Origin: Boletus sp. NGJ
Lineage: Eukaryota; Basidiomycota; Agaricomycetes; Boletales; Boletaceae
Assembly (NCBI GenBank): GCA_019096195.1
Contig: JAGTXK010000127.1
Span: forward strand, 50,412 to 114,411
Length of the DNA stretch: 64,000 nt
Reading direction: 5' to 3'
The notes under the pieces are model-generated. The model worked only from the letters and a program-made list of their open reading frames with translations, had not been told where the DNA came from and made no database searches. Numbering within the stretch: the stretch's first letter is position 1; each line of letters begins with the position of its first letter. The translations under genes and the position numbers were made by a program. Shown here piece by piece: positions 11,473 to 58,880 of this stretch.

Positions 11473-14306
11473 TTACATGATCAGGCATCCCCCCGCACAC
11501 AACCTCTCCACCCACTTCGTAATACCCCGCTTCCTAGTACTCCCCCCACCACCCGCCCTGGCAGCCCTCCGCGTGACCCTCGCCCAATCAATCGCACCGC
11601 CCACCCTCGTCACCTCAATCGACACCTCCTTCTCCCCACCGACCGGCACGTCATAAAACCACCTCAACATCTGCTCACCATCGTCCATCTCCACCCTCCC
11701 CTCCGACACCTTGACCTCCACCGCATACCCCTCCGTCTCTATCTTCTCCCGGCCAGACCCCAGCAATGTCGACGTCGCCAAAGGCAACGTGTCCGTCGAC
11801 CTACTCCCACTCCTCACCGCGTCTGGATCCAACTCGGCTCGCTCCTCACGCGCCCGAACAGCGACAGACCGCTCGACACATCCATCCGACGCAAAATGCA
11901 CCAACGGGATAAAAATCTCCGTCGGGAGCATGCTTTCATGCTTGTTATCCTCGTCCTTGACCAAACCCTCTCCCCCCTCTCCCTCCGTCTCCGTCTGTGG
12001 TGCATCCGCCGGCGTGACGCGAACCTTGACCTTCAACGATGCCTTGCGGATGTCAAACTGAATGTCCACCGGCGTACCGACGACCTTGACGGGATACGGT
12101 CGACAAAAGGCACGTATCGCGCGCGCGCCGTCCCGCAAGAACGCCAAAACCTCGTGTAGCGGCACAGACTTGACAGTCAAAGATGGGCTCGTAGACACAT
12201 AGGGCGACGACGGGACAGGCAGCGTCGCCAACGACGCGCTCGAGGCGCGTGCCGACGCCAGCGACCCAGCCGCTCCGTCATAGTGACCACATTTCCCCGC
12301 GTCGTCCTCGCTCCACAGACTCAAATCCTCGTTGTTCCACCCATCCCCCCACATATGGCTGTTATCCGGACAATACGTCCACACCGTATAGCTCAACGCG
12401 TTTGGCCCGTCCGCCGCGTTCAAGCTCGCGTCCAGCGCACGCTCTTGAGCCGAATAATCACCATAACCCTTGCTCTTCGGATCGTATGCCTTCTTGTTGT
12501 CCATGTCCATCGGCGTCCCAATTTCGCCAATCATGGTCGGGTACCGACGCGGCCCCGGAGCGTCCACGCCAAGCTGCACGCCATCCGACTTTAGCATCCC
12601 AAGCTGACTCTGAAAACTCGCCCGAATCGCCCGGTCCCCAAACTTTGCCGCGAATATCGGACTACTATACTTACCTCTGACGACGCCCAGCGCGTCCGCG
12701 TTGACAAAATTCCAATGACACGTAATGAGCGTCAGACCGTCGTAATAATGGGTCGAGTGGCAACCGCGTCCTTGGAGCAACGATTCCGGAATTGCCGGGG
12801 GGATGGCAAAGACGGGAGCTTGGACGAACGCGATGGCGCTTGGGTGGGCGGTGCGGATGCGGGTAACGTAGTCAGTCAAGTGAGGCAGAAAGAAGTCTTT
12901 GAGAAAGTTTACTGGCACGCCAGTGGCACCGGATGGGGAAGGATTATAACGAAAATAATCGGGTCGTAGCAGGGAACCGGAACGGTGATCCCATACGCCA
13001 TGGAGAGCCCATACACATGTCCCCAGCGTCCATTCGCTCGATCGTTGCCAACCCCACTTGGGATGCACGCCGTCTGGTTCGGTGCTGGGATCCGCCCATA
13101 TGCGAACACCCTTTGGATCAACCACGACAGACCCGCTGCGCGTCGATCCAAACGAACCAAAGGTATAGTTATCCAATACCTGCGCGACGCCCATCCCAAG
13201 CGTGAACGACTGCAGCGGGGTCGGCATGGTCCCCTTTTTCAGCGCCGATCCTTGCACGGTCGGATACACGCTCAGATCCTCGTACCCAATGAACCCCTCG
13301 GAAGGTTCATTCATATTATCCCAGCCAATTACGACGTCGTCCAATAACCCTCCGGCGTCGCGAATCCGATCTGCGAGTATCCCAAAAGCCTTTATGAAAT
13401 GGGACTGAAGGTAATCTTGAATGTTCATCCCGTCGATGATACATTTAGGGGTGTAAACTTTGCCACCGAAAAAGAGGGCAAAGAGGGTTTGGGAGGCGAG
13501 ACGACTATAGTTGGTGGACCAGATCATGGAAGGGAGAGCGGCGGGATCCGGGGTGTCAGAAGAGGGGTTTGCGTATTCGCAGTGTACGATCGCGGCTTGG
13601 GTAGCTGTGAACGCTTCTGGGTCGATACCACACGCTGGGAGGGTCCAGTACGGAGCCCCGGAGCCCCCCGAGAAACGTGACCACTAGAATAATAATAAAT
13701 GAGTGAGAAAAGCGCCAACGGGGACAAAAAGGAACGCATACAATGTCTTGATGCGGGTCCACATAAACTTTGAACCCGTATTCTTTGCATTTATGAAGAA
13801 CGCGAATAGTATAATCCATAAAATCATAATCAAAACGTCCACTAGCACACCACGGGTGAGAACGCGTTGGCGCGCGGAGAGCAAAAGAAAAAAAAAAAAA
13901 GAAAAACTCACGGTCCCTCATGTTCGAGCGCTTCCCAAGGAATGGGATACCGAAGCACGTTGAACCCCCACCCTCTGAGACGGCCTAAATGCGCGTCTGC
14001 AGAACCATCGTCGATATCAAATGGACGACCGAGAAAGCGCTGTCCGCCGGCCTGTGCGGACGACCAAAAGCCGTCGAGAACGTGGGAGGGCTGGCCGACG
14101 GGGGCTTTGGTGGACCCAGAGAGATTTACGCCGCGTAATAACAGCGTGCGGCCGGTCGTGTCGACGAACTGGCCGTTCAGGGTGTATAGATAGTCTTTTG
14201 GAGTCGGTTGGCCTGTCGCCGGGCAAGTTTTAGGTACTTGGGGCATATGGGCCTCGTTGTCGTCGCCGTCGTGCGTGTGGACGTAGAAGTGGTAGTGGTG
14301 AAGCAA
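11473..14306 (-). CDS. GH5_12 steryl beta-glucosidase (EGCrP2-like)
   Basis: Three exons on the minus strand, 13912-14306, 13742-13841 and 11473-13683, with phases that match, give 901 residues. The fold is glycoside hydrolase family 5: 'GRTLLLRGVNLSGSTKAP' at the N terminus, 'GWGFNVLRYPIPWEALEHEG', 'YVDPHQDIWSRFSGGSGAPY', acid/base Glu in 'WDNMNEPSEG', nucleophile Glu in 'MIGEIGTPMD' and 'YTVWTYCPDN'. The order and spacing match the fungal enzymes that remove glucose from ergosteryl glucoside (GH5 subfamily 12), so a role in sterol-glucoside turnover is inferred. A beta-sandwich C-terminal domain and an acidic linker follow. The last four residues, CLIM, form a CaaX-type box. A second in-frame ATG at 14246 is a possible alternative start. 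No signal peptide is seen, consistent with an intracellular enzyme. Confidence 0.93.
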
Positions 14307-38110: not shown

Positions 38111-38170
38111 AGACATCCTAGGGCATGCTAGGGTGGGTTCAACCCTTACCCTAGGGTTACCTGAACCCTA

Positions 38171-38780
38171 TTTTAAGGGATCTAATCTAATTGGGTAAGG
38201 GCTACCATAGGGTACAGGTAACATCAACATAGCAAACCACGCACATGCGCCATTGGCGCATGTGCGCGTCCACAACAACATCGCAATAAAACATGAACAA
38301 TCGAGTGTTGATAACGACGACTGCAGCATAAACGATGAACAGATGAAAACGAGGAATATGTTGAGTGTAGTTATACAGCGTGCACATGCGCGCATGGCGC
38401 ATGTGCATGTGAAATAAGCAACAACAACAAGACACATGTTTCACATTTATACGACAAACACGCCGATGCGCCATGAGAGCATCTGCTCAGTTGATAGGTG
38501 TGTCGTACTGAGGTCTTGTTGTTGTTTGTTTCCCGCGCACATGCGCACATGGCGCATGTGCGCGCTGTCTATAGTACGACACACCTATCAACTGAGCAGA
38601 TGCTCTCATGGCGCATCGGCGTGTTTGTCGTATAAATGTGAAACATGTGTCTTGTTGTTGTTGCTTATTTCACATGCACATGCGCCATGCGCGCATGTGC
38701 ACGCTGTATAACTACACTCAACATATTCCTCGTTTTCATCTGTTCATCGTTTATGCTGCAGTCGTCGTTATCAACACTCG
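38171..38780. repeat. Palindromic repeat 'P': 207-base arms around a 65-base centre
   Basis: Bases 38302-38508 are the reverse complement of 38574-38780, apart from rare mismatches. The left flank (38171-38301) is a further inverted match to 40569-40699. The arms contain many GCGCATGTGCG/CGCACATGCGC hairpins. The apparent ORFs in the arms are mirror images of each other and show no protein family, so I regard the element as non-coding. It abuts degenerate telomere-like repeats on its left (38142-38162). Confidence 0.85.
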
Positions 38781-38920
38781 ACAATGGCGTCGTTGTCATC
38801 TGCGCCTGGAATGCATTGCATTCCTCTTTTCACATACATGTCCTGTGTACATTATTTTAGTACCTTATATTTACACTCTGAAGGGTTCAAATCACCTCTA
38901 CGCTCACGTATCATTCCTCT

Positions 38921-38937
38921 TAGGGTTAGGGTTAGGG
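38921..38937 (+). repeat. Interstitial telomere-type repeat (TTAGGG)n
   Basis: Nearly three tandem units of TTAGGG, directly joined to the GGAGCCGAGCC end of the palindromic element. Confidence 0.95.
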
Positions 38938-39123
38938 AGCCGAGCCGAGCCGCGAAGCGGCGAGGCGAGGCGTTACCGGCGGTAAGGCGATAACGCTGTT
39001 GCCTCGGCAAGGGATTACCTTATGGGTCGCACTAGAGATATTGTCTACCGGTCGAGTACCAATTCGCCGGCGGTGTCTAGCCTTAGCTAGCACCCTAGTG
39101 TTTATCTACACTAAAGGCCCGTC

Positions 39124-39176
39124 ATGGGTTTCGACCTTTTGGTCTCATCAGTAGGGGCGCACACCCCTAAACCCAC
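39124..39176 (-). ncRNA. Type III hammerhead ribozyme, copy 1 (minus strand)
   Basis: Exact inverted copy of the motif at 39335-39387. All core bases (CUGAUGA, GAAA, UH at the cleavage site) are present on the minus strand; predicted cleavage lies between 39170 and 39169. Confidence 0.85.
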
Positions 39177-39334
39177 ACCACCTTAGGACATACTAACCGG
39201 CTTATGTACACCTCACCATGATTTTGTATTGTCCTGGGCAGACTGGCTCATGAAATTTCCTTTTCAGGACTTATGACCGCCATACAAAATCATGGTGAGG
39301 TGTACATAAGCCGGTTAGTATGTCCTAAGGTGGT

Positions 39335-39387
39335 GTGGGTTTAGGGGTGTGCGCCCCTACTGATGAGACCAAAAGGTCGAAACCCAT
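39335..39387 (+). ncRNA. Type III hammerhead ribozyme, copy 2
   Basis: Hand folding gives a complete hammerhead. Stem III pairs 39335-39340 with 39382-39387. Predicted cleavage follows 39341 (H17 = U). Stem I is a closed hairpin, 39342-39347 with 39354-39359. The conserved CUGAUGA is 39360-39366, stem II is 39367-39370 with 39375-39378 (loop AAAA), and GAAA is 39379-39382. Stem III is the open stem, so it is type III. Stem III is short (6 bp), as in plant retrozymes that act as dimers. Confidence 0.87.
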
Positions 39388-39589
39388 GACGGGCCTTTAG
39401 TGTAGATAAACACTAGGGTGCTAGCTAAGGCTAGACACCGCCGGCGAATTGGTACTCGACCGGTAGACAATATCTCTAGTGCGACCCATAAGGTAATCCC
39501 TTGCCGAGGCAACAGCGTTATCGCCTTACCGCCGGTAACGCCTCGGCCTCGCCGCTTCGCGGCTCGGCTCGGCTCCCTAACCTAAACCT

Positions 39590-39890
39590 AATTCTCACGC
39601 AGAAGCGCAACCGGAAAGATCCGAGTGACAAACCGGCAAGATCCGGCTTTAATTTCCGCTGCGTAATCTCCGCTCTCCCACGTTTTATTAATGGTCCGTG
39701 CGCGTTCCCTTCCCGTATAAATACAGGTAAGGAACAAGAAATTCTTTTCACTAGTTCGCCAGAGGTCTGATGAGTCCCCGGACGAAATAGGTGGCAATGG
39801 AAGCGGTCGCCCCATCGCCTATTACCTATCTGGCACCATCCCTACACTACCCCCCTCACACTTTTGCTTCGCAAAAGTGTTCGGCCCCCC
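39590..39890 (+). mobile_element. TATA-hammerhead-hairpin unit 1
   Basis: A compact non-coding unit: 5' block with repeated AAGATCCG motifs, a conserved 'TTTCCGCTGCG' and 'TAATGGTCCGTGCGC' block, a TATAAATA box (39716-39723), a type I hammerhead (39758-39834), 'GGCACCATCCCTACAC' and a 10-bp hairpin (39858-39880), ending CGGCCCCCC and running straight into telomere-type CCCTAA repeats. Two further units in the same orientation follow at 40697 and 40942. Confidence 0.85.
39758..39834 (+). ncRNA. Type I hammerhead ribozyme, copy 1
   Basis: Stem I pairs 39758-39766 with 39824-39834 across an internal loop. CUGAUGA is 39767-39773, stem II 39774-39777 with 39780-39783, GAAA 39784-39787. Stem III is closed and runs to U16.1 at 39822. 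Predicted cleavage is between 39823 and 39824. The open stem is stem I, so type I, the kind known from Penelope-like elements and animal retrozymes. Confidence 0.87.
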
Positions 39891-39944
39891 TAACCCTAAC
39901 CCTTCGCGGCTCGGCTCGGCTCCCTAACCCTAACCTAACCCTAA
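39885..39944 (+). repeat. Telomere-type CCCTAA repeats with a short 'T' element end between
   Basis: CCCCCCTAACCCTAACCC (39885-39902), then 20 bases identical to the outer end of the 'T' element, then CCCTAACCCTAACCTAACCCTAA (39922-39944). Confidence 0.9.
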
Positions 39945-40239
39945 GAGGTGTACATAAGCCGGTTAGTATGTCCTAAGGTGGTGTGGGTTTAGGGGTGTGC
40001 GCCCCTACTGATGAGACCAAAAGGTCGAAACCCATGACGGGCCTTTAGTGTAGATAAACACTAGGGTGCTAGCTAAGGCTAGACACCGCCGGCGAATTGG
40101 TACTCGACCGGTAGACAATATCTCTAGTGCGACCCATAAGGTAATCCCTTGCCGAGGCAACAGCGTTATCGCCTTACCGCCGGTAACGCCTCGCCTCGCC
40201 GCTTCGCGGCTCGGCTCGGCTCCCTAACCTAACCCTAAC
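39945..40239 (+). repeat. Third copy of the 'T' element
   Basis: Near-identical to 39293-39590 in the same orientation. It begins just after telomere repeats (truncated relative to the palindrome arm, starting at GAGGTGTACATAAG) and ends CTCCCTAACCTAACCCTAAC. Confidence 0.92.
39983..40035 (+). ncRNA. Type III hammerhead ribozyme, copy 3
   Basis: Identical to copy 2 with an offset of 648 bases. Predicted cleavage follows 39989. Confidence 0.86.
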
Positions 40240-40699
40240 GACAAACACGCCGATGCGCCATGAGAGCATCTGCTCAGTTGATAGGTGTGTCGTACTGAGG
40301 TCTTGTTTGTTGTTTGTTTCCCGCGCACATGCGCACATGGCGCATGTGCGCGCTGTCTATAGTACGACACACCTATCAACTGAGCAGATGCTCTCATGGC
40401 GCATCGGCGTGTTTGTCGTATAAATGTGAAACATGTGTCTTGTTGTTGTTGCTTATTTCACACGCACATGCGCCATGCGCGCATGTGCGCGCTGCATAAC
40501 TACACTCAACATATCCCTCGTTTTCATCTGTTCATCGTTTATGCCGCAGTCGTCGTTATCAACACTCGATTGTTCATGTTTTATTGCGATGTTGTTGTGG
40601 ACGCGCACATGCACCATTGGCGCATGTGCGTGGTTTGCTATGTTGATGTTACCTGTACCCTATGGTAGCCCTTACCCAATTAGATTAGATCCCTTAAAA
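40240..40699 (+). repeat. Second copy of palindromic repeat 'P'
   Basis: Starts immediately after telomere-type repeats. Bases 40240-40565 match 38452-38780 and 40367-40699 match the reverse complement of 38171-38508. It contains its own inner inverted repeat of about 54 bases (40240-40294 with 40367-40421). It ends CCCTTAAAA and joins unit 2 of the hammerhead series. Confidence 0.88.
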
Positions 40700-40940
40700 T
40701 TTCCGCTGCGTCTATCTCCGCCTCCCACGTTATTACTAATGGTCCGTGCGCGATTCTCTCCCATATAAATAGGGTAAGAATCAAGAAAATCTTTTCTTCC
40801 TATCGCCAGAGGTCTGATGAGTCTCCGGACGAAATAGGTGGCAATGGAATGCTGAGGCCCCATCGCCTATTACCTATCTGGCACCCATCCCTACACACAT
40901 CCCCCTCGCTGCTTGCTTCGCTCGCAGCTCGGCCCCCCTA
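40697..40940 (+). mobile_element. TATA-hammerhead-hairpin unit 2 (5' truncated)
   Basis: Begins at 'TTTCCGCTGCG', lacking the AAGATCCG block. TATAAATA at 40764-40771, hammerhead 40805-40882, then 'GGCACCCATCCCTACAC' and a hairpin around 40909-40930 whose stem sequence differs from unit 1 but still pairs. It ends CGGCCCCCCTAACC. Confidence 0.83.
40805..40882 (+). ncRNA. Type I hammerhead ribozyme, copy 2
   Basis: Same fold as copy 1. Stem II has GUCU/GGAC, one G-U wobble in place of G-C, which keeps pairing. The stem III loop is one base longer. Predicted cleavage is between 40871 and 40872. Confidence 0.85.
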
Positions 40941-40941
40941 A

Positions 40942-41230
40942 CCAACCGGAAAGATCCGAGTGTTACCGGCAAGATCCGGCTTTAATTTCCGCTGCGTCTA
41001 TCTCCGCTCTCCCACGTTATATTAATGGTCCGTGCGCAACTCTTTCTTGTATAAATACAGGTAAGAGTTATGAAATACTTTTCTCTATTCGCCAGAGGTC
41101 TGATGAGTCCCCGGACGAAATAGGTGGCAATGGAAGCGGTCGCCCCATCGCCTATTACCTATCTGGCACCATCCCACTCCTATCCCCCTCGCACAGCTCG
41201 CTTCGCTCGCTGTGCTCGGCCCCCCTAACC
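40942..41230 (+). mobile_element. TATA-hammerhead-hairpin unit 3
   Basis: Carries the full 5' block 'ACCGGAAAGATCCGAGTG', TATAAATA at 41050-41057, a type I hammerhead at 41091-41167, 'GGCACCATCCCA' and a hairpin 41191-41215 (GCACAGC…GCTGTGC). It ends CGGCCCCCCTAACC like the other units. Confidence 0.85.
41091..41167 (+). ncRNA. Type I hammerhead ribozyme, copy 3
   Basis: Same fold and same core as copy 1, offset 1,333 bases. Predicted cleavage is between 41156 and 41157. Confidence 0.87.
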
Positions 41231-41640
41231 ACAGCTTGGCTCAGTTTCCTAACCTGAACCCAATTACAAAAAGTATATTAAATCTGCACTAATACTATTG
41301 CTTTTATGTAACTTACTATAGTACACTTTTTAATGCATTTGATTGCTTTCATTGTTTGAATGGTAAAATAGCATGGTAAAAAGATATGGTAAAAGGATAG
41401 CAAAAGGAATAAAACTATGATAAAAGAGCTGAAAAGCATGATTAAAAGCATAGAGATCTGCTTTTAGTACTTTTCATGTGGGTTCATGAAAGCACTGGAA
41501 AGCAACAAAAAGTATGTGAGAAGCAGCACAAAGCAACATGTGAATTTACTGATATAGCCTATTACCTACAGTATCTGGCACCCCATCCCTACACATATCC
41601 CCCTCACAGTGCTTGGCCTCCTAACCCTTCCTCACTAGGG
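41231..41640 (+). other. AT-rich tail and relic of a fourth hammerhead unit
   Basis: 41270-41550 is AT-rich with degenerate TGGTAAAA/AAAGCAT repeats. At 41546-41626 the sequence returns to a decayed 3' end of the same unit: 'CCTATTACCTA' then 'TATCTGGCACC', 'ATCCCTACACATATCCCCCTC' in part, and 'CCTCCTAACCC'. The ribozyme core upstream is lost. Confidence 0.6.
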
Positions 41641-58337: not shown

Positions 58338-58880
58338 ATGCAGCGCTTTGACGATACGAGCGCGCTATGTCGAGATGAAGGCCTGGGAGGCGATATGGCC
58401 GAGCAAGTCGAATCAGAGGTCGTCGAGGGAAATCCGGACCGCCAAAGGGTTGTCGACAGCCCCGGATGCGATGGGATAGATCCCAGGAGCGTCGGGAGCA
58501 CGCGCGTCGTCGAAACGAACGCGCTATGTCGAGTTACAGGCCCAGGAGGCCATCTGGGCGAGAAGGTCAAATCGGGAGGTACCAAGGATGAAACGCACCG
58601 CCAAAAGGTTGTCGACGGCGCCGGATACGACGGGAAAGGTCCCAGGACCGCCAGAAACGAGCCCGTCGACGAAACGAACGCGCTACGTCGAGATAGCGCC
58701 CCAGGAGGCCACATCGGCCAGGAGGAGGCGTCGAGAGGCGTTGGATGTGATTGGATGCACCAAAACGACACTGAAGGTGTCCAATGGGATGGGAAAAGGT
58801 GCGGAAGCGATGGCGCAACGAGCAGCGCACGCTACGAGTCGAAACGAGTCGAAACGCAGACCATGACATGTACATCATGA
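58338..58880 (+). CDS. ORF made mostly of three 53-residue repeats
   Basis: An open frame of 180 codons. Residues from about 7 onward consist of three head-to-tail repeats, each beginning '(T/S)ALCRD' or 'NALRRD', then 'GPGGHLGE'-like, then 'RQ(R/K)VVD', then 'GYDG'. The repeat period is exactly 159 bases, so frame is kept. The protein is hydrophilic and rich in Gly, Asp, Arg and Glu. No family is recognised; it could be a repeat-containing gene or part of a mobile element. The opposite strand is also open (58280-58771), so the coding strand is not certain. Confidence 0.35.
   Translation: MQRFDDTSALCRDEGLGGDMAEQVESEVVEGNPDRQRVVDSPGCDGIDPRSVGSTRVVETNALCRVTGPGGHLGEKVKSGGTKDETHRQKVVDGAGYDGKGPRTARNEPVDETNALRRDSAPGGHIGQEEASRGVGCDWMHQNDTEGVQWDGKRCGSDGATSSARYESKRVETQTMTCTS
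58356..58832 (+). repeat. 159-base tandem repeat, three copies
   Basis: Copies start at 58356, 58515 and 58674, each opening ACGA(G/A)CGCGCTA(T/C)GTCGAG. The third copy diverges after about 70 bases. Confidence 0.85.

Follow-up and report, generated by a model that had tools for sequence, protein, structure and literature searches.

Two kinds of small hammerhead ribozyme unit with telomere-like tails form a chain in a Boletus genome

Among the described systems closest to the locus reported here are endonuclease-lacking Penelope-like elements of bdelloid rotifers, namely the Terminons, which expose C-rich telomeric repeats beside a hammerhead ribozyme and form 5'-truncated head-to-tail chains (PMC6431247; PMC12477314), and the Athena elements, which carry short telomeric repeats at their 3' end (PMC8909793); here and below, statements about published systems refer to the cited portions of those papers. 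The role of the minimal hammerheads in Penelope-like elements and Terminons is still called a mystery (PMC7761336). Endonuclease-lacking Penelope-like elements occur in selected fungi and prime at deprotected telomeres or double-strand breaks (PMC3846280). One basidiomycete genome is already known to contain type III hammerheads: that of Pleurotus ostreatus gave five matches to the Rfam family Hammerhead_3, 55 nucleotides (nt) each, with three on one scaffold (PMC5040776). Here we describe a chain of hammerhead-bearing units with telomere-like 3' tails in Boletus sp. NGJ, contig JAGTXK010000127.1 (GCA_019096195.1). All positions refer to the 64,000-nt stretch of this contig that was analysed, hereafter the window. 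No report of fungal genomic hammerhead elements with telomeric tails was among the literature matches listed, in the portions of text that these covered.

We read the locus as probably a chain of very small retroelements, non-coding and non-autonomous, that fall into two families according to whether their hammerhead ribozyme is of type I or type III; they would attach to telomeric or broken ends via a 3' CCCUAACC. A sequence-only reading of the same DNA had proposed three type I hammerhead units. These are real: a structural descriptor recovered all three, their landmarks could be located, and the result lies beyond chance. The type I units and their parts are as follows.

39609 to 39905, plus strand: type I unit 1, full length (AACCGGAAAG ... 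CGGCCCCCCTAACCCTAACCC); 5' end placed by homology with unit 3 (86.9% identity)
40697 to 40943, plus strand: type I unit 2, 5'-truncated; from alignment with the other type I units
40944 to 41230, plus strand: type I unit 3, full length; from sequence comparison and alignment
41554 to 41630, plus strand: decayed 3' piece of a fourth type I unit (3' half of the ribozyme, link and tail); blastn 82% over 62 nt, E 9e-11, and alignment
39758 to 39834, plus strand: type I hammerhead of unit 1, predicted cleavage 39823/39824; descriptor and landmarks
40805 to 40882, plus strand: type I hammerhead of unit 2, predicted cleavage 40871/40872; descriptor and landmarks
41091 to 41167, plus strand: type I hammerhead of unit 3, predicted cleavage 41156/41157; descriptor and landmarks
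39882 to 39901, plus strand: CGGCCCCCCTAACC and telomere-like tail of unit 1; sequence match
40930 to 40943, plus strand: CGGCCCCCCTAACC of unit 2, followed directly by the 5' end of unit 3; sequence match
41217 to 41230, plus strand: CGGCCCCCCTAACC of unit 3; sequence match

Unit 1 had been said to begin at 39590; its presence stands, while homology to unit 3 moves its start to 39608/39609, and the unit overlaps by its final bases with the piece that follows. About 42 nt are missing from the 5' end of unit 2, which lies in direct tandem with unit 3, its CGGCCCCCCTAACC abutting the 5' end of the latter. The two are 85.8% identical (blastn), which rules out that they arose by rolling circle from one RNA or circle. 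The layout proposed for all three units was confirmed, namely TATAAATA, a spacer, the type I hammerhead, a link, a hairpin and CGGCCCCCCTAACC. The TATAAATA box starts at 39716, 40764 and 41050 (three of its four occurrences in the window, both strands considered), and stem I begins 33-34 nt past its end, at 39758, 40805 and 41091. Behind the ribozyme, 47-49 nt of link and hairpin lead to CGGCCCCCCTAACC, which ends at 39895, 40943 and 41230 and whose three occurrences in the whole window all fall in type I units.

In each of the three units the descriptor found the CUGANGA and GAAA cores, three stems, an NUH site and a closed stem III. It was composed for type I and type III hammerheads after the sites had been seen; with that limit, it returned six sites in the window (three type I and three type III), compared with four hits, in three shuffles, among 600 whole-window dinucleotide shuffles. 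Stem I consists of GCCAGA/UCUGGC, a 2-nt bulge and GGU/ACC, stem II has three base pairs (bp) closed by a CCCG or UCCG loop, and helix III is present, with 7 bp and a further 4 bp past a bulge. The position U17 falls at 39823, 40871 and 41156, in agreement with the 5' ends that had been predicted from the letters at 39824, 40872 and 41157. A difference of copy 2 in stem II, taken there for a wobble change, is better understood as a loop change in one copy (GUCCCCGGAC to GUCUCCGGAC) than as covariation, since a 4-bp stem would leave a loop of 2 nt. Computed with ViennaRNA, the native type I fold has energies of -21.6, -23.4 and -21.6 kcal/mol. The cleavage triplet is AUU in the type I ribozymes and GUU in the type III ribozymes. 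At the type I sites Rfam matched Hammerhead_3 weakly and in the 5' half, with 17.6, 23.5 and 21.2 bits and E-values of 4.6, 0.098 and 0.45 for copies 1-3 (gathering score 48.5); its output holds the best family per clan, so that Hammerhead_3 scores are what is shown at these sites.

No other long part of the type I unit is as conserved as the ribozyme. With gap columns excluded, units 1 and 3 are identical at 78/78 ribozyme positions, compared with 172/204 elsewhere (Fisher P 2.7e-5). Unit 2 differs from unit 1 at 4/78 ribozyme positions and 46/162 others (Fisher P 1.4e-5), and from unit 3 at 4/78 and 44/164 (Fisher P 2.7e-5); its four ribozyme differences sit in loop II and at the tip of stem III. 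Two further parts of the unit are hairpins whose sequences change between copies.

39704 to 39735, plus strand: hairpin around TATAAATA, unit 1 (GUUCC/GGAAC); -8.2 kcal/mol, z -2.3; covariation
40752 to 40782, plus strand: hairpin around TATAAATA, unit 2 (GAUUCU/AGAAUC); -9.9 kcal/mol, z -2.9
41038 to 41069, plus strand: hairpin around TATAAATA, unit 3 (AACUCUU/AAGAGUU); -11.7 kcal/mol, z -4.3
39859 to 39879, plus strand: terminal hairpin, unit 1; -9.2 kcal/mol, z -4.8
40908 to 40928, plus strand: terminal hairpin, unit 2; -8.5 kcal/mol, z -1.5
41191 to 41215, plus strand: terminal hairpin, unit 3; -11.9 kcal/mol, z -2.3

The terminal hairpins, as had been noticed before, differ in sequence yet pair: 25/30 of their pairs are standard, and 82 of 200,000 random-substitution trials did as well. 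The TATAAATA box lies in the loop of a second covarying hairpin, which is new here. Its outer stems read GUUCC/GGAAC, GAUUC/GAAUC and AACUC/GAGUU, so that four of the five pairs change on both sides, and all 15 cells are paired, as against 20-53% in slid versions. For four of five measures the observed value was reached in 9/500 shuffles, while the number of further pair types was matched in 155/500; 13 of 200,000 random-substitution trials attained the observed value. None of these hairpin figures is a clean probability, the hairpins having been chosen after inspection of the sequence in three copies. The earlier suggestion of selection on RNA structure is supported by a ribozyme conserved over the rest of the unit and by two hairpins that change yet pair.

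Covariation around TATAAATA suggests that the transcribed RNA includes this stretch as well, and it bears on whether the units might be TATA-driven small RNA genes, in which TATAAATA would set a start just before the ribozyme and self-cutting would free a hairpin RNA of about 70 nt with a telomere-complementary end. The box is indeed invariant in the three copies, 33-34 nt before stem I, and conservation falls on the ribozyme and on the final 11 bases ahead of the tail end. We nevertheless consider such genes very unlikely: the covarying inverted repeat around TATAAATA points to structure in a longer RNA, and truncation, decay and chaining with type III units make the copies resemble mobile elements.

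These type III units are interspersed among and beside the type I units.

39297 to 39589, plus strand: type III unit a, comprising a 5' part, type III hammerhead, structured body, CUUCG hairpin and telomere-like tail; repeats, Rfam and alignment
39334 to 39388, plus strand: type III hammerhead of unit a; RF00008 43 bits, E 3e-7, and descriptor
39945 to 40238, plus strand: type III unit b, directly after CCCTAA; repeats and alignment
39982 to 40036, plus strand: type III hammerhead of unit b; RF00008 43 bits and descriptor
38920 to 39214, minus strand: inverted type III unit with a tail of (CCCTAA)n; identical to unit b over 285 nt
39123 to 39177, minus strand: type III hammerhead of the inverted unit; RF00008 43 bits and descriptor
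39902 to 39944, plus strand: last ~20 nt and telomere-like tail of a type III unit, 5'-truncated, preceded by CCCTAACCCTAACCC; repeats and sequence match
41234 to 41265, plus strand: putative decayed type III 3' tail; local alignment to the unit a tail

All three type III hammerheads were found by the descriptor and match RF00008 with 43 bits (E 3e-7). The gathering score is 48.5, so that a default Rfam scan lists none of them. Cleavage of units a and b is predicted to leave 5' ends at 39342 and 39990, one base past position H17. Unit a differs from unit b and the inverted unit by one inserted base before the tail. Between 38920 and 39589, two type III units stand head to head, with perfectly complementary arms of 264 nt around a 52-nt centre; TTAGGG stands to the left and CCCTAA-like repeats to the right, an arrangement that resembles a fusion of two chromosome ends. 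A foldback element some 470 nt long is present in two copies, at 38170-38781 and 40238-40697; it has perfect arms of 59 bp and repeated ATGCGC palindromes and yields spurious microRNA matches. The Rfam microRNA matches (mir-942 and others) were rejected, as they stay below gathering scores and the longest fall on long inverted repeats.

Both unit types terminate in a CUUCG-tipped hairpin followed by CGGC and a C-rich CCCTAACC, which is the reverse complement of TTAGGG-type repeats. A CCTAACC-type sequence stands at the 3' end of all nine units or pieces, and near-identical type III units carry differing telomere-like tails (CCCTAACCTAAACCTAA, CCCTAACCTAACCCTAA, CCCTAACCCTAACCCTAA). In the window we counted 12 telomere-like matches with at most two mismatches, where 2.7 were expected; nine of these lie inside 38920-40238. 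A census of the nine, which two decayed pieces enter by judgement, gave five of full length, four that are 5'-truncated (39902, 40697, 41234 and 41554) and none that is 3'-truncated. Eight of the nine share one orientation and form a head-to-tail chain, in which decay is strongest in the last two pieces on the right, as would follow from outward growth to the left. The sequence-only reading was partly right in its overall interpretation; it had overlooked the telomeric nature of the CCCTAACC tail, the interspersed type III units and the position of TATAAATA inside a hairpin.

Events at the DNA level could account for some of this pattern. Template switching in imperfect inverted repeats would perfect hairpin arms without selection, and the chain would then be a product of telomere repair or fusion, in keeping with the many inverted repeats of the locus and with the two type III units that stand head to head, as after an end-to-end fusion. 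As this would leave unexplained both the conservation of the ribozyme and the loss at 5' ends only, we think it improbable.

In the retroelement mechanism that we favour, the element RNAs would terminate in the CUUCG-capped hairpin and CCCUAACC, and this end would pair with TTAGGG-type DNA and prime reverse transcription. We infer that the reverse transcriptase would be supplied in trans, most likely by an endonuclease-lacking Penelope-like enzyme, and that new copies would join a chromosome end, or a broken end bearing such repeats. Head-to-tail chains, short telomeric repeats between units and loss at 5' ends only would be the outcome. The hammerhead would process multimeric or read-through transcripts.

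One cut would sever tail and body; even so, each of the five full-length copies includes its own cleavage site, and none of the four truncations ends there. The copied RNA was therefore uncut or rejoined, which would reflect either slow cleavage or rejoining as in retrozymes. In one version of the favoured retroelement mechanism, which we regard as possible rather than probable, adjacent hammerheads would excise a 285-nt monomer (40872-41156 fits) that is then ligated into a retrozyme-like circle. There, CCCUAACC would adjoin AACCGG; copied a single time around from a telomere end, the circle would yield an exact full-length unit. The ribozyme sites of the tandem units 2 and 3 are spaced by 285 nt, the covarying TATAAATA hairpin places that stretch inside the RNA, and both the size and the type I ribozyme with helix III match animal retrozymes (PMC7229834); the unbroken cleavage sites also fit such circles, although slow ribozymes explain them equally well. 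The fold of the circle is unremarkable (z -1.3 for the type I monomer, -0.7 for unit 1 and -2.6 for type III; 100 shuffles each). A compact, viroid-like circle is unsupported for type I by the first two of these values, and animal non-LTR (long terminal repeat) retrozymes may differ in this respect. Taken further, the locus might hold a fungal 'telomere retrozyme', with two hammerhead topologies on the same kind of telomere-pairing tail, whose monomer circle would be copied once around from its internal CCCUAACC template in a telomerase-like manner, the chromosome end serving as primer; this is a tentative and rather doubtful proposal.

The partner enzyme might also come from a telomere-directed long interspersed nuclear element (LINE) of the MoTeR/Cnl1 kind instead of a Penelope-like element. 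LINEs of this kind are found in fungi; they insert into telomeric repeats, form arrays and leave relics with variable telomere tracts (PMC12810828; PMC8381367). The locus resembles them in being fungal and arrayed, in its variable telomere-like tracts and in its probable direction to telomeres. They are coding elements of kilobases for which the cited portions describe no ribozyme, the very word being absent from PMC8381367, whereas the units here are non-coding. Penelope-like elements, on the other hand, have been reported at mushroom chromosome ends (PMC7473861), and hammerheads have been described for Penelope-like elements and Terminons (PMC7761336). We therefore regard a LINE partner as unlikely. 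Coprina elements are endonuclease-lacking, telomere-associated Penelope-like elements of basidiomycetes; they likely share host group and telomere link with the present units, but are autonomous where the latter are non-autonomous.

Several observations weigh against the favoured retroelement explanation. AUU and GUU are slow cleavage triplets, and the computed energy minima of the type I ribozymes (-27.4, -26.9 and -27.4 kcal/mol) disrupt the core, leaving the native fold 3.5-5.8 kcal/mol less stable; ribozyme activity is thus plausible from the modelled folds, not assured. In both hairpins, the 5' arms of unit 2 pair equally well with the 3' arms of unit 3 (5/5 and 7/10), so that the covariation signal comes mostly from units 1 and 3. 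The likeness between the tails of the two families upstream of CTAACC is modest and, for unit 1, no better than in shuffles, which were as good or better in 627, 33 and 87 of 5000 cases for units 1, 2 and 3. One type III unit is inverted, and the locus sits among gene-like open reading frames (ORFs) without a visible chromosome end; both show that the site is interstitial today, possibly as the result of a fusion or rearrangement, and priming at a double-strand break would also account for an internal site. No reverse transcriptase family was found by Pfam in the 40 ORFs of at least 150 amino acids in the window (bacterial code, unspliced, none reaching the window ends). Finally, no further copies of either family turned up in the viral and prokaryote collections, the sole collections scanned, as expected for a eukaryotic source. 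Five contigs of the viral collection (L001-L005) that were picked up with a looser type III core pattern were set aside, as they share no likeness with the locus beyond the core; they have strong hammerhead cores, with stem III closed by eye.

Comparison with known systems places the units between several of them. As in Terminons and Athena elements, the hammerhead lies near the 3' end, the 3' terminus carries reverse-complement telomeric repeats, and head-to-tail chains go together with 5' truncation by telomeric repeats (PMC6431247; PMC8909793). The Terminon hammerhead, however, lies directly beside the repeats, where the type I units have 47-49 nt including a hairpin, and Terminons reach up to 40 kb and code for a reverse transcriptase, for which units of about 287 nt have no room. 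The minimal hammerhead of Terminons and Athena elements lacks helix III or the loop contacts, whereas helix III is extended here; loop elements of the type I ribozyme are the stem I bulge of 2 nt and the CCCG or UCCG loop II. The second family with its type III ribozyme is a further difference from both. Animal non-LTR retrozymes resemble the units in their small size (~300 bp; 150-450 bp) and a type I hammerhead with helix III, and they form tandem copies (PMC7229834), of which the locus has one direct case (units 2 and 3); the present units differ in their fungal host, their telomere-like tail and their mostly single copies in a mixed chain. Plant LTR retrozymes share the type III hammerhead with the second family and have LTRs, while here we find a single ribozyme and a telomere-like tail; the window repeat list holds no LTR-like pair flanking a type III unit. 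The type III hammerheads of Pleurotus ostreatus come from another basidiomycete and span 55 nt, as do the three sites here, and are listed without element, tail or telomere context in the cited portion (PMC5040776); likened by their description, they may form one family with those of the window. The earlier link to Penelope-like elements and retrozymes was a good lead. The unit behaves as a Terminon end would on a non-autonomous element of retrozyme size, and it is classed as neither.

Elsewhere in the window, the ORF at 11473-13527 has its best match to 7lpo (551 bits), which we take to be a Cryptococcus sterylglucosidase, and matches sterylglucosidase A of 8exd with 372 bits. RTT107-type BRCT and GH5 C-terminal domains are also found among the ORFs (Pfam). 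This gene content points to a fungal and probably basidiomycete source. Intron-like motifs number 15 and 7 on the two strands, compared with a mean of 8 and a maximum of 13 in single-strand shuffles. A weak sub-cutoff match to a tnp2-type transposase (PF02992, E 0.003) lies at 83-745 on the minus strand, and a tandem repeat with period 159 and 2.3 copies at 58350-58719 overlaps ORFs without a Pfam match.

A non-coding unit of less than 300 nt in which a ribozyme is joined to two covarying hairpins and to a telomere-pairing tail would offer a minimal system for studying what the hammerhead does. That ribozymes of both types share a similar tail at a single locus in a fungus would suggest an interchangeable ribozyme topology, with the tail as the decisive part. 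The finding may also explain the context-free type III hammerheads listed for a mushroom genome (PMC5040776, in its cited portion), and it would take the principle of the rotifer Terminons into fungi and into elements that are non-autonomous.

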